Source: Thermanaerovibrio velox DSM 12556
GTDB taxonomy: Bacteria; Synergistota; Synergistia; Synergistales; Synergistaceae
Assembly (NCBI RefSeq): GCF_000237825.1
Contig: NZ_CM001377.1
Span: 1,426,001 to 1,490,000 of the forward strand
Reading direction: 5' to 3'
Length of the DNA stretch: 64,000 nucleotides
This document shows, in pieces, positions 11,611 to 17,519 of this stretch. The notes beneath the pieces were generated by a model. It did not search any database. It was given only the letters and a program-made list of their open reading frames with translations, and had not been told where the DNA came from. The position numbers and the translations under genes are program-made. The first letter of the stretch is position 1. Each line of letters starts with the position of its first letter.

Positions 11611-12420
11611 CTACTCCTCGACGAAAGCCACGATGCGGCTTATGCAGGACTCGCCGCCCTCAAAACGCCAGGGGAAGCAGCCGATGGTAACCCGCTTGCC
11701 GGAGAGCAGGTCGATGTCCCCGCCGAGACACTCGGCATGAATTATGTTGTGGGGGAACAGATCGATGTGCATGAGCTGGTAGTCCTCCGGCGGGAAGAAA
11801 TCGTCCAGCCCCTTGCCGTACTTCTCCTTGAGATGCTTGTCCGCCATCTTGGCGTGATAGGGCATCCACTCCCGGATCTTGGTGTTCATGGGGTGATCCG
11901 CGGATCCGCAGTCAACCCCTATCCACTTTATCTTCCTCTTCTTGCACCACTGGGCGAACTCAGAGGTGGGACCGGGGTGCATGACCATGTACCTCACCTC
12001 GTCCGCCTCAGGCTGGTCCCAGCCGTAGCGGTGGTAACCGGTGTTGATGATCAGTATGTCCCCGTCGTGAACCTCCGCCCGCTCCTCTATGTCCTTGCTG
12101 GTGTATATGCCGTAGTCCTCCGCGATGTCCCTTATGTCCACCACCACGCCAGGGCCGATGAGGAAATCCTTCAGCTCCAGGCTAGCTATGTCGCAGCCGT
12201 GGGTGCAGAAGTGCAGGGGACCATCCAGGTGGGTTCCCACGTGGTTGGAGTGGGTCAGCAACTGACCGTTGGCCCCGTTGGGGGCTAAACGCTTGAAGAA
12301 CTTTATCTGCAGCGGCTCGTAGGTGGGCCACGCAGGAGTGAGATGGCTTATGGGGATGGTGAGATCGTAAACCTTTATGTTGCCCCAGTTCTTAAGTTCC
12401 CAGTTAGCGCTCATGTTCAT
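11611..12420 (-). CDS. Cyclase-family (kynurenine formamidase-like) metal-dependent hydrolase
   Basis: This 269-residue protein belongs to the putative cyclase family (Pfam PF04199, arylformamidase fold). The defining metal-binding motif HxGTHxDxPxH is present as SNHVGTHLDGPLHF near residue 80, with DCGSADHP later. Family members hydrolyse amide bonds in formylkynurenine, isatin or related ring-derived compounds. Placed directly after allG in a purine island, it may open a ring or hydrolyse a ureido intermediate such as oxalurate or a hydantoin-like compound; that substrate is a guess. The ATG follows a GAGGAGGAATG-type site. The 84-base gap upstream holds a small AAGCCC/GGGCTT hairpin without a U tract. 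Confidence 0.82.
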   Translation of the reverse strand: MNMSANWELKNWGNIKVYDLTIPISHLTPAWPTYEPLQIKFFKRLAPNGANGQLLTHSNHVGTHLDGPLHFCTHGCDIASLELKDFLIGPGVVVDIRDIAEDYGIYTSKDIEERAEVHDGDILIINTGYHRYGWDQPEADEVRYMVMHPGPTSEFAQWCKKRKIKWIGVDCGSADHPMNTKIREWMPYHAKMADKHLKEKYGKGLDDFFPPEDYQLMHIDLFPHNIIHAECLGGDIDLLSGKRVTIGCFPWRFEGGESCISRIVAFVEE

Positions 12421-12504: not shown

Positions 12505-13763
12505 CTACTCCCCGTACTTCTCCACGAAGGCCTCCGCCGCCTTTATGAAGGCCTCGGCGGGCATGCGAACTATGCCGGCACCCACCTGCCCCCGTCCAGG
12601 CTCCTTGTGGGCCGCCCCGGTGTCCAGAACCGGGGTGATCCCGGTCTCCGCCACCTTGAGGATGTCTATCCCCGTGGGGGTGCCCCGGAAGTTAAGGGAG
12701 GGGATGGAGTAGACGTTGTTCTCCCCAAGGGTTATCTCGTACATCTCCAGGGTGTACTTAGCCGCGTCCTCCGGGGTACCGCCTATGAACTGCACTATGG
12801 CGGGGGCCGCCGCCAAGGCGAAACCGCCTACCCCAAGGGTCTCCATGATGGCACTGTCCCCGATGTCCCGGTTGACATCGTCCTTGGTGTACCCGGGGAA
12901 GAGAAGCACATCGGGCAGGGCGGCCTCGCAGGTAAACCACTGCTTCCCAAGCCCTGAGACCTGTATGCCCATCTCGGTGCCGTTCCGGGCCATCACGGTC
13001 ACCAGGGAAGACCCCTCCACCTCGTGGGCCGCCTCGGTGCTGGCCTTGGCGGCCGCCATGGCTATGTTGAGGAAGAAGTGGTCGTTCTTGTCGATGAACC
13101 GCACCACCTCCGCCAGATCCCGGCAGTTTGGGACCGCCTCTATCATGAACGGCACCACCGCCCGAAGGAACAGGCTGGTGCCCGCCTTGTTGCGGTTGTG
13201 CATCTCGTCCCCCATGTGCAGCGCCTGGGCTATTATGTTCTTTACGTCTATCGCCCCCCTGGACCTCATAGGCCCTCCTTATCCCCGCGTGGAGGTTCGG
13301 GTAAAGGGTGTAACGCATCCACTTGAGGCGCTCTATTACCTCCTGGTCATACGGCCCCCATCCTCATGACCTTGCCCAAGCCCTCGTTCATGCTGCAGTA
13401 GGACCGGTTCCCCCGATCCTTGTTCTCTATGACGAACACCGGCATGTGAGGACTCGTGACCCCCGCCATGGGACCCACCGCGTTGTGATGATGACAGGGA
13501 TCGAAGGCTATCTCACCGCTGGCCGCCAGCTCCTGGGCCTCCTCCGGGGTGGAAGCCCATCCCTCGTACAGGCAAGCGGCGATCACCGCCCCCCTCATGG
13601 GACCCGACATGCGCTCCCACGTGATGGGAGGGCCCGCGTGCATCAGCATCTTCTCTCCCATCCCAGGGACCACGTCCACCGCAAGACCCATGTCCACCAG
13701 CACCGGCTGGGCCGACAGGAGCCTGGAAAGGGCCTCCTGATTCGCCTTGTCGATATCCACCAT
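12505..13763 (-). pseudogene. allG: Oxamate carbamoyltransferase subunit AllG (YlbE, DUF1116), interrupted by two +1 frameshifts
   Basis: The family protein is about 419 residues. Here it is split over three frames. Residues 1-138 (start ATG 13763 behind AGGAGGGAT) run through LLHAGPP-like, CHHHNAVGPM and GLGKVMRMGA, then hit TGA at 13347-13349. Dropping one base at the C5 tract 13355-13359 (G5 on the coding strand) continues as YDQEVIERLKWMRYTLYPNL... Dropping one base at the C6 tract 13254-13259 restores the frame that gives AIDVKNIIAQALHMGDE through to the end at 12505. Rejoined, the order matches DUF1116 along its whole length. AllG with FdrA/AllF and AllH forms oxamate carbamoyltransferase (oxalurate plus phosphate to oxamate plus carbamoyl phosphate). 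Both lesions are in G homopolymers, so sequencing error, phase variation or true decay are all possible. Confidence 0.88.
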
Positions 13764-13833: not shown

Positions 13834-14016
13834 CTACTGCCTCTTAAGCTTCCTAAGCTTTGACAGCAGGTCCGAACCGGCGGTGGGGGGACGCCAATCC
13901 ATCTGCACCACCAGGACGCCCTGGGCGGACAAGTCCTGGGCGAACTGCTCCACCCCGATGTTCACCACCTTGGGACCCTCCTTCAAGAGTTTCTTCAATC
14001 TCTCGTTCAACCCCAT
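13834..14016 (-). CDS. FdrA C-terminal-domain-like small protein
   Basis: A 60-residue protein (MGLNERLKKLLKEGPKVVNI..., ending LLSKLRKLKRQ) whose core KVVNIGVEQFAQDL...VVQMDWRPP resembles the C-terminal tail of longer FdrA proteins (E. coli FdrA, about 555 residues), as I remember that family. The neighbouring FdrA is only 512 residues and lacks this tail, so the domain seems to be encoded separately here. The ATG at 14016 overlaps the fdrA TGA (TGATG), which implies translational coupling. An in-frame GTG sits one codon upstream at 14019. It probably associates with FdrA in the oxamate carbamoyltransferase complex. Confidence 0.75.
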   Translation of the reverse strand: MGLNERLKKLLKEGPKVVNIGVEQFAQDLSAQGVLVVQMDWRPPTAGSDLLSKLRKLKRQ

Positions 14017-15554
14017 CACCCCTTAAGAAGGTACGCAGCAAGCCTCGAGGCCTTGGCGTTGCTGTCCATCACCACCACTCCCGCGTCCTCCAGCGTCTTC
14101 CTCTGACGGTCCGAGTCCTGGGGATCGTCGGGGGTGCCGCATACGGACGCCACGAAGACCACCCGGTCCCCCGCCAGCTTCCGCGCCTTCTGTATGCCCT
14201 CCACCAGCCCCGAGGCGGGATCCGGGTTGCAGCCGTAACCTATCACCACGTCGAAGAGGATGACCCCCACCTCCGGGTCCTTCGCCTCCTCCTCGAACCT
14301 GGAGGCCCTTAGGGACACGTCTATCATGGGGTGCAGACGCCCCTGAGTGAACTCGTCCTCCCCGAAGTCCACTATGCTGTGCTCCACGGACCTCAGGCTG
14401 TCCTCAAGCTTGAGCTCCTTCCTCAAGGGGGTGTTGCTGTGAATGGGACCCAAGACGTCCTGAGCTATGAGCTGGGCCTCGTAGCAGAGGGTCCCACCGG
14501 AGTAGAGCCCTCGGAGGTATCCCTTGCGGAGCCCTATCTGCTCCGCCAGGGCCCTTATCTTCCGGTCCTCCTCCTCCATGGCGGACCTCACGGCACCCAC
14601 GTCCTCCCCCTTCGCAAGCGCCGCCGCCACCGCAGCGGTCTCCTCCAGCTCCCGACAGATGTACACCGGATGCCTGTCCCCACTGGCCTTGCCGCCTATG
14701 AAGCCCAGCACCACCGGCTTTTGCGAACCGGAAGCGAGCTTCAGGATCTTCTCCTCCACCTCCGGTGCCGGGGGCTTGCCAAGGATCACCAACACCTTAA
14801 CCTCCGGGTCCTCCAGCAGGAGCCGGGAAGCCATCTCAACCATTATGCCCCCCACCTCGGACTTAACGTCCCTGCCGCCGGTGCCTATGCCGTGGAGGGT
14901 CCCCACTCCCCGGCGGGCCAGCTGCACGTGAACCTCCTGAAGACCCGTCCCCGCCGCCGCCACCATGGAAACCGGCCCCACGGGACACACGTTGGCCATC
15001 CCTATGGCCACCCCGCGGATTATCACGGTGCCGCAGTCAGGCCCCATCACCAGGAGCCCCTTCTCCGCCGCAGCCCTCTTGACCTCTATCTCCTTCTCCA
15101 GGGGCACGTTGTCCGAGTAGAGCATCACGTTGAGCCCCTTGGATATGCAGTCCGTCGCCACGTCACCGGCGTAACGGCCCGCCACGGACACCACCGCCAG
15201 GTTGGCATCCCCCAAAACCGAAAGGGCCCCGTCAATACTCTTGGGCCTGTAAACCCCGCCCCCATCCTGCCCCTGCTGCTTCCAGGGGGGGTTGCTCAGG
15301 TACTCCCTGGCCTTCGCCACAGCCCCGTCGAGGAGGTCCGGCTCCCCCATGACCGCTATGATAAGGTCGTTAGGGGTCGCGCAAAGCCCGGACAGGTCGT
15401 ATCCCGCCGCGGCAAGGATCCTCAAGTTCGCCTCGGTGCCCATGGACAAGGACGCGGAGCTTATCCCCTCCATGGAGTTGATCTCCTTGGCAACCCTCAT
15501 CAGGGTGACGCTGTCGTAATAGGTGCGCTCTACCACCTCTATGCGCTGTACCAC
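14016..15554 (-). CDS. fdrA: Oxamate carbamoyltransferase subunit FdrA (AllF), succinyl-CoA-synthetase-alpha-like
   Basis: A 512-residue protein of the FdrA family, built like succinyl-CoA synthetase alpha/NDP-forming acyl-CoA ligases. An ACT-like N-terminal region (RIEVVERTYYDSVTLMRVAKEI) is followed by a Rossmann-type CoA-binding domain (LLVMGPDCGTVIIRGVAIGMAN about 178, GTGLQEVHVQLARRGVG) and a ligase domain ending RLAAYLLKG. I chose GTG 15554, six bases after GGAGGT; the open frame extends to 15806 but that part is low-complexity shadow of the overlapping gene. FdrA, AllG and AllH together were shown in E. coli to be the oxamate carbamoyltransferase of allantoin/purine fermentation. The complete tail domain is on the next gene. 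Confidence 0.9.
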   Translation of the reverse strand: MVQRIEVVERTYYDSVTLMRVAKEINSMEGISSASLSMGTEANLRILAAAGYDLSGLCATPNDLIIAVMGEPDLLDGAVAKAREYLSNPPWKQQGQDGGGVYRPKSIDGALSVLGDANLAVVSVAGRYAGDVATDCISKGLNVMLYSDNVPLEKEIEVKRAAAEKGLLVMGPDCGTVIIRGVAIGMANVCPVGPVSMVAAAGTGLQEVHVQLARRGVGTLHGIGTGGRDVKSEVGGIMVEMASRLLLEDPEVKVLVILGKPPAPEVEEKILKLASGSQKPVVLGFIGGKASGDRHPVYICRELEETAAVAAALAKGEDVGAVRSAMEEEDRKIRALAEQIGLRKGYLRGLYSGGTLCYEAQLIAQDVLGPIHSNTPLRKELKLEDSLRSVEHSIVDFGEDEFTQGRLHPMIDVSLRASRFEEEAKDPEVGVILFDVVIGYGCNPDPASGLVEGIQKARKLAGDRVVFVASVCGTPDDPQDSDRQRKTLEDAGVVVMDSNAKASRLAAYLLKG

Positions 15555-15601
15555 AAGATCACCTCCGCAACCTCTGAGTCTGCAGCCTAAAAACCAAGCC
15601 C

Positions 15602-16321
15602 TCAAAGGGCCATTAAACCTTCTATGCCTAGGGCCATCCCTATAAGACAGCATCTGCCGGAGGTGTGCCCCACCGCCTGGGCCCTTCCAACCGCCTCCAG
15701 AAGGTCTCCGCGGCCCATTACCCCCCCAAGCCCCGCCAGAACATCCCTGGCGGCCTTCCACGCAAGGCCAAGGGCCGCACAGGAAAGCTGGTCCGACGAG
15801 AACCAAGAGGTCCCACGGGGGTCAAACACCTCAAGAAACCGCATCCCCGCCGATACATCCCCCACGGCCCTCCGGGCCAACAGCCAACCGGTCAGCACAT
15901 CGTCCCCCGCCGGGGTGTGTCCGGGACCCATCCCCACAAGCCCCATGGGGTCCCCCCCCTCCACCGGCCCCCTCAAGAAGGACAGCTCCGGATCCTCAAG
16001 GAAGCCTAGCCACTCAAGCCAAAGGGGCCTAAAATCCCCAAGGGGCTCAAGACCGTCCACCCAAGGCCAGTACAAACCGCATGGCCCAGGGGGGAGCCAA
16101 ACCGTGACATCCCCTGCAAGACCCTCCAACGACCTCACCAGGACGCTCCTGGGCCCCATGAGACACAGATCCTGCACCAAGCTCACCCTTACACCCCCGG
16201 GACCCTCCAGGTTCACCGCCCGCCGGTGAACCTCCCGGACCCTTAAGGGGGCTCCAGAGAGGACAAGGTCCCCCAGGACGTCATCGCTCACCCCAAGAGG
16301 GAAGACCTCACAGCCCCCCAT
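15602..16321 (-). CDS. allH: Oxamate carbamoyltransferase subunit AllH (YlbF, DUF2877)
   Basis: This 239-residue protein contains the DUF2877 signature as GMGPGHTPAGDDVLTGWLLARR near residue 140, a nucleotide- or phosphate-binding-looking Gly/Asp motif. It continues with SWFSSDQLSCAALGLAW and a C-terminal GHTSGRCCLIGMALGI. ATG 16321 lies eight bases after the CoA-transferase stop, with a weak GAGG site, suggesting coupling. Together with fdrA (47 nt downstream) and allG it completes the three-subunit oxamate carbamoyltransferase gene set. E. coli AllH is about 270 residues, so this version is slightly short at the N-terminus. Confidence 0.87.
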   Translation of the reverse strand: MGGCEVFPLGVSDDVLGDLVLSGAPLRVREVHRRAVNLEGPGGVRVSLVQDLCLMGPRSVLVRSLEGLAGDVTVWLPPGPCGLYWPWVDGLEPLGDFRPLWLEWLGFLEDPELSFLRGPVEGGDPMGLVGMGPGHTPAGDDVLTGWLLARRAVGDVSAGMRFLEVFDPRGTSWFSSDQLSCAALGLAWKAARDVLAGLGGVMGRGDLLEAVGRAQAVGHTSGRCCLIGMALGIEGLMAL

Positions 16322-16328
16322 GGGAGCC

Positions 16329-17519
16329 TCAGCCCAGCACCCCCTGGCGCTTAAGCTCCTGGATCTCCTCCTCGCCCATGGAAAGGAACTCCCCCAGGAC
16401 CTTGCCGGTGTGCTCCCCAAGCAGCGGTGCGGGACCTTTTATCTCCCCCGGGGTCTTGGAGAACTTTATGGGCACGCCCGGGACCTTGAGCTCCCCAGCC
16501 ACCGGGTGGACCAGGGACACGATCATGTCCCGGGCTAACACGTGGGGGTCCGATACCACCTTGTCCACGGTGTTTATGGGGCCACAAGGCACGTTCGCCT
16601 CCCGCAGGACCTCCACCCAATGGGCGGTGCTCCTGGTCCTGGTGCGCTCGTTTATAGCCGCCTTGAGCTCCGGCCAGTTCCTTATGCGGTCCGAGTTGGT
16701 GAGGAACCTCGGGTCCTGGACGAACTCCTCCATGCCAAGCACGCTGCAGAGCTTAGCCCAAAGGGCATCGTTCCCCGCCGCTATGTTCACAAAACCGTCG
16801 GAGCTCTCGAAGGTGGCAAAGGGGGCTATGGATGGATGATCGTTCCCCGCGGGCTTAGGCACGTTCCCAGTGACCACGTACCGGGCTATGGCGTTCTCCA
16901 GCGTGGCCACCAGACAGTCCAACATGGCCACGTCCACCATCTGTCCCTGACCCGTTATGTCCCTGGCCCTGAGGGCTCCAAGTATGCCTATCACGGTGAA
17001 TATGCCGGCCAGTATGTCCGCCATGGAGGAACCCACCTTGGTGGGGTGCTCCTCATCCGGACCGGTTATGCTCTGCAACCCTCCCATGCCCTGGATTATC
17101 AGGTCATAGGCGGGGAGGTGGCTGTACGGGCCATACTGACCGAACCCGGAACTGGCGGCGTAGATCAACCTGGGGTTCACACCGGACAGCACCGGGTAGC
17201 CCAACCCCAGCTTCTCCATGGTGCCGGGCTTGAAGTTCTCCACCAGCACGTCCACCTTCTTCACGAGCTCCAACAGCAGCTTCTTCCCCTCCGGGTGCTT
17301 CAGGTTTATGGCCACGCTCTCCTTGCCCCGGTTTATGCTCATGAAGTAGGCGCTCTCTCCGTTCACCATGGGGGCGAAGGCCCTGGAGTCGTCACCCCCC
17401 GAGGGGTTCTCGACCTTTATCACCCGGGCCCCCAGGTCGGACAACATCATGGTGGCGAAGGGACCCGCCAAAACCCTGGTAAGATCCAGCACCGTAACTC
17501 CTTCCAACGGCCTGTTCAC
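16329..17519 (-). CDS. Class III CoA-transferase (CaiB/BaiF, formyl-CoA:oxalate CoA-transferase-like)
   Basis: A 396-residue enzyme of the family III CoA-transferases, which form interlocked dimers. It has the family's opening LEGVTVLDLTRVLAGPFATMMLSDLGA, the RGKESVAINLKHPEGK segment, and the catalytic aspartate in GSSMADILAG (about residue 168). GTG 17519 is preferred: GGAGGT lies eight bases upstream, while the TTG two codons earlier is too close to that site. The preceding amidase stop is immediately adjacent. In an oxamate/oxalurate operon, a transferase handling oxalate or oxamate-derived acyl-CoA would fit, since the best known family member acts on formyl-CoA and oxalate. The family also acts on carnitine and aromatic acids, so the substrate is inferred. 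Confidence 0.88.
   Translation of the reverse strand: MNRPLEGVTVLDLTRVLAGPFATMMLSDLGARVIKVENPSGGDDSRAFAPMVNGESAYFMSINRGKESVAINLKHPEGKKLLLELVKKVDVLVENFKPGTMEKLGLGYPVLSGVNPRLIYAASSGFGQYGPYSHLPAYDLIIQGMGGLQSITGPDEEHPTKVGSSMADILAGIFTVIGILGALRARDITGQGQMVDVAMLDCLVATLENAIARYVVTGNVPKPAGNDHPSIAPFATFESSDGFVNIAAGNDALWAKLCSVLGMEEFVQDPRFLTNSDRIRNWPELKAAINERTRTRSTAHWVEVLREANVPCGPINTVDKVVSDPHVLARDMIVSLVHPVAGELKVPGVPIKFSKTPGEIKGPAPLLGEHTGKVLGEFLSMGEEEIQELKRQGVLG

Follow-up and report, generated by a model that had tools for sequence, protein, structure and literature searches.

In the deposited genome sequence of Thermanaerovibrio velox DSM 12556, the DUF1116/AllG gene (allG, window 13763-12505, minus strand) is split by a double frameshift, which raises the question of whether the gene is broken in the organism or in its sequence. 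The window is the whole stretch of DNA that was analysed, 64 kb in length, which corresponds to positions 1,426,001-1,490,000 of the single contig that makes up the genome. The original prediction had placed the two extra bases within a G5 and a G6 tract, had considered the decay of this one subunit odd, and had put forward sequencing error, phase-variable expression and transcriptional slippage as options. Our analysis indicates that the double frameshift very probably consists of two spurious G's generated by dephasing during 454 pyrosequencing, and is not the outcome of decay, phase variation or slippage. This reading rests on the position of the extra bases, on the conservation of the gene and its lack of decay, on the intact orthologues, on the recurrence of the same pattern in the assembly and on the known sequencing platform.

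The features of the locus are collected in Table 1. The frames of the pieces confirmed that two shifts split allG, with a total of two extra bases. Both large pieces exceed the Pfam cut-off of PF06545, which is 27 bits. The middle piece matches profile positions 48-82 with a score under the cut-off. Once the three pieces are combined, the AllG profile is covered over its full length. Sequence comparison therefore predicts, as part of the sequencing-error reading and with the same high probability, that allG in the cell would be a single intact gene of about 418 codons, encoding a putative subunit of an oxamate carbamoyltransferase-like FdrA/AllG/AllH complex.

Table 1. Coordinates of the split allG gene, of its two extra bases and of neighbouring genes in the window.
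Feature	Position	Strand	Remarks
allG (DUF1116/PF06545), 5' piece	13347..13763	-	138 aa open frame; PF06545 E 1.3e-23, profile 1-53; 84.2 bits
allG, middle piece	13260..13352	-	third frame, conserved; about 30-33 codons
allG, 3' piece	12505..13269	-	254 aa open frame; PF06545 E 4e-58, profile 78-215; 196.9 bits
Site 1, one extra base (alignment gap column)	13352		two bases off C5 run 13355-13359 (coding-strand G5)
Site 2, one extra base (alignment gap column)	13252		one base off C6 run 13254-13259 (coding-strand G6)
fdrA-like partner subunit gene (Ligase_CoA, CoA_binding)	14016..15806	-	intact; start putative
allH-like partner subunit gene (PF11392)	15602..16420	-	intact
Putative cyclase (PF04199), neighbour	11611..12420	-	intact; dN/dS 0.037

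The C6 and C5 runs are located exactly where the original prediction had put them. However, the window contains 400 G/C runs of at least 5 bases, 87 of which are of at least 6, so that a run beside a break means little alone. What counts is where the extra base sits with respect to the run, and whether the pattern recurs elsewhere. At both sites the extra base is a G on the coding strand, identical to the run, with one or two C's in between. The sole best gap placement is this spaced position, past the run plus two C's at site 1 and plus one C at site 2. A gap inside the runs would yield Pro at site 1, where none of the 67 aligned relatives has Pro and 55 have Ala, and would yield Ala at site 2, where Ala is again found in 0 of 67. 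The extra bases are therefore not within the G-runs, contrary to what had been supposed. The comparison of tract lengths with relatives, which had been proposed as a check, gave equal lengths and no added base in the runs: the G6 run at site 2 has the same length in T. velox, in T. acidaminovorans, in a third Thermanaerovibrio genome and in the next relative, and the third Thermanaerovibrio genome also has a run of five G's at site 1. DNA hairpins were also looked for at the two sites, and no unusual structure was found (z 1.49 and -0.22).

With respect to T. acidaminovorans, dN/dS was 0.070 in the 5' piece (133 codons), 0.097 in the middle piece (30 codons) and 0.054 in the 3' piece (248 codons), and the middle piece showed zero second-position changes; intact neighbouring genes gave values from 0.037 to 0.394 in the same comparison. 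The conserved frames of the three pieces contain no internal stop. All three pieces are thus under strong purifying selection, with neither the relaxed selection nor the further lesions that mark a pseudogene, and the idea that allG is decaying does not hold.

The gene is in one frame almost everywhere else. AllG relatives were found at 62 loci in genome contigs, 59 of which are full length with a single stop-free frame; the remaining three were not counted as intact because two are cut by contig ends (L121 and L124) and a stop interrupts the alignment of the third (L113). A cruder motif test likewise gave 59 of 62, with L073 failing in place of L113. The gene is intact in T. acidaminovorans, with a frame of about 420 aa. 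Within the family, AllG is present in 7 of 52 genomes: five carry an intact gene, and the other two are T. velox and the third Thermanaerovibrio genome, where the gene is cut by contig ends. In the latter assembly (140 contigs), site 1 and site 2 lie on separate contigs, each of which keeps the frame to its end. An exact pattern search of genome contigs for near-identical loci found none, and plasmid records gave no match. A comparable case is that of ylbE, the AllG orthologue of Escherichia coli K-12, which was likewise reported as frameshifted: a 2012 paper describes a frameshift that is absent from other strains and is possibly a sequencing error (PMC3364942). That sequence is older than the T. 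velox one. In the current record of E. coli MG1655, ylbE is one open CDS of 419 aa (locus L127, 4858-6117).

The recurrence of the pattern was assessed by comparing 464 kb of T. velox (the window and 400 kb on its flanks) with 480 kb of T. acidaminovorans. Comparison of T. velox DNA with 176 genes that are open in T. acidaminovorans (203 kb coding) yielded 40 frame changes, 12 of which, chosen by eye, were judged to be interior single-base frameshifts, in 10 genes (allG included); the other 28 were dropped, most of them being weakly conserved or close to an ORF start. All 12 interior events are at most 12 nt from a run of at least 5 bases (null 0.113), and 11 of 12 have the spaced motif (null 0.073), with a binomial probability of about 4e-12 in either case. 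After automatic filtering on the flanks, 17 events remained. Eleven of them are 200 nt or more inside the ORF, and every one of these has a run nearby, 10 also showing the spaced motif; the other six, which fall within the initial 200 nt, were discarded as differences in the start, three of them being near a run of at least 5. The event in ORF 109519, accepted by eye, fails the automatic filter and is poorly aligned (53/90 matches).

Besides allG, nine T. velox genes are affected (genome about 1,271,000-1,704,800), with runs of at least 5 nearby. They include ychF, rnfB, a methylmalonyl-CoA mutase large-subunit-like gene and a selenium-dependent xanthine dehydrogenase gene with two events. Each of 14 control genomes gave a match to ychF, with a score over the cut-off in 10 of them; in the T. 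velox assembly this gene is split, and we could find no full copy there. The strain had been cultured to be sequenced, so breaks in this many conserved genes point to error. In the reverse comparison 9 events passed, 5 of which mirror T. velox breaks and were set aside; none of the 4 breaks private to T. acidaminovorans is near a run, only one of the four being at least 200 nt into its ORF.

Since the spaced motif is present in about 64% of windows with a run of at least 5, its count does not separate this pattern from slippage, and only the placement of the inserted base does so. We call a placement spaced when the inserted base is the same as that of the run, with one or two other bases between. 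Of 11 insertions, six could be placed only as spaced, two were tied between a spaced and another placement, one fell inside the run and two elsewhere. Any spaced placement was obtained in 1.2% of simulated random insertions (20,000 simulations); when a run was extended by one base (451 simulations), it was obtained in 7.8%, and an exclusively spaced placement in 1.6%. Therefore, 8 spaced insertions out of 11 have a probability of 6e-14 under random insertion and of 2e-7 under run slippage. Without the two allG sites, six of nine insertions can be placed as spaced and four only so; six of nine still has a probability of 2e-10 (random) and 2e-5 (slippage). The spaced pattern is not universal across the T. 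velox events. In fact, the first event of the selenium-dependent xanthine dehydrogenase gene is a plain run extension, the two insertions placed elsewhere are exceptions by nucleotide matching, and the rnfB event is a loss of one base, unlike the 11 insertions.

These features resemble a known fault of the platform. According to its genome report, the T. velox DSM 12556 genome (1,880,838 bases) was obtained from 454 GS FLX Titanium reads at 7.9x and Illumina GAii reads at 120x, with an error rate given as less than 1 in 100,000 and 12 annotated pseudogenes (PMC3910556). In the carry-forward/incomplete-extension (CAFIE) error described for 454 sequencing, the inserted base is that of a nearby homopolymer, one or two bases away (PMC2323236), and a 2011 assessment of GS-FLX Titanium describes both phasing faults (PMC3116506). 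The T. velox extra base is likewise identical to a nearby homopolymer and one or two bases off; the difference is that here the error is read from a finished consensus and persists despite Illumina polishing. T. acidaminovorans (1,848,474 bases) was reported as sequenced with Sanger reads at 9.7x and 454 reads at 9.9x (PMC3035242), and this genome, finished with Sanger reads, shows no run-associated frameshift pattern.

A long G-run may leave some of the strands one cycle out of phase. Such strands would give a G signal of about one real base in the next flow of that nucleotide (or the previous one, when read from the other strand), and a base identical to the run would then be called one or two bases beyond it. 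With the thin 454 coverage of 7.9x, and with polishing that missed these places, the errors would be kept in the consensus. Whereas the position of the extra bases, the conservation, the recurrence and the platform are shown directly, we infer that the dephasing error was present in the reads and how Illumina polishing came to fail at the sites. An argument against error is that polishing at 120x, with an error rate stated as below 1 in 100,000, should have removed most errors of this kind.

The same Illumina polishing is what speaks for a real and recent pseudogene, in which the type strain or its culture-collection line would have lost allG through two frameshifts, with other decay too recent to show; such a loss would also be tolerable, given how sparse allG is in the family. 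However, two independent indels would have occurred while none of the pieces shows excess amino-acid change, and nine other genes, ychF and rnfB among them, would need similar recent breaks near runs. We consider this explanation very unlikely. Less probable still is that the many +1 insertions one or two bases past G/C runs in conserved genes are real and that T. velox lives with them, which would call for an unknown mutational process and for a tolerant or corrective translation system.

The two mechanisms that act through the runs themselves can be given hardly any weight, although G-runs lie close to both breaks. Slippage, in replication or in transcription, would alter the run itself; since the run lengths are equal and the gap placement is unlike that of simulated slippage (exclusively spaced in 6 of 11 insertions), homopolymer slippage was rejected. 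For a phase-variable allG, deposited in its 'off' state after slippage of the G5 and G6 runs, it must be added that the runs are short and keep the length found in intact relatives, that the extra bases are outside them, that two simultaneous off-shifts would be needed, and that runs of this kind are ordinary in this genome. A metabolic subunit is also an unusual target for phase variation. Programmed frameshifting or transcriptional slippage, by which a truly shifted gene would yield full AllG, could account for a middle piece that is conserved in its own frame. Yet AllG is in one frame in most relatives, in T. acidaminovorans and in E. coli ylbE, which indicates that there was no ancestral recoding, and two events would need to arise together at a distance of 100 nt. 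Runs of 5-6 G's are, moreover, short for slippage. Both mechanisms thus appear extremely improbable, and of the options first put forward sequencing error alone finds support, in the spaced position, the recurrence, the lack of decay, the intact orthologues and the platform.

Reading the double frameshift as 454 dephasing removes a false pseudogene or phase-variation lead at allG. It also shows that false frameshifts in this GEBA type-strain assembly probably number in the tens; if evenly spread, the 12 events of the 464 kb would extrapolate to about 49 per genome, as compared with the 12 annotated pseudogenes and the stated error rate. For assemblies of the same era, the placement of the extra base (in the run or spaced from it) offers a cheap way to discriminate a pyrosequencing artefact from real homopolymer slippage.

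Some minor observations concern the relatives and the neighbouring genes. The locus L113 (2501-3745), whose AllG alignment has an internal stop, comes from a metagenome-assembled genome of the Alphaproteobacteria. In the third Thermanaerovibrio genome, a contig break falls exactly at the second G-run of allG, which may be a place that is hard for short reads, in this one case. One of the allG contig ends in that assembly has a tail that we take to resemble a Nextera adapter.

The fdrA-like, allG and allH-like genes are adjacent in T. velox, with matches to PF06545 and PF11392, as in the FdrA/AllG/AllH (oxamate carbamoyltransferase) cluster; unlike that system, the T. velox cluster additionally contains CoA-transferase, nitrilase, cyclase and xanthine-dehydrogenase-type genes. 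All the neighbouring genes are open. A test of 82 ORFs of relatives over the window left allG as the sole one judged to be truly broken, in agreement with the original view that the rest of the operon is intact; the remaining ORFs flagged in the frameshift scan of the window were by appearance shadow frames or start differences, a third-position G+C filter having been added afterwards. The allH-like gene overlaps the CoA-transferase and fdrA-like frames, so that starts may be wrong. This gene also diverges much faster than its neighbours, with a dN/dS of 0.39 over 222 codons aligned with T. acidaminovorans.
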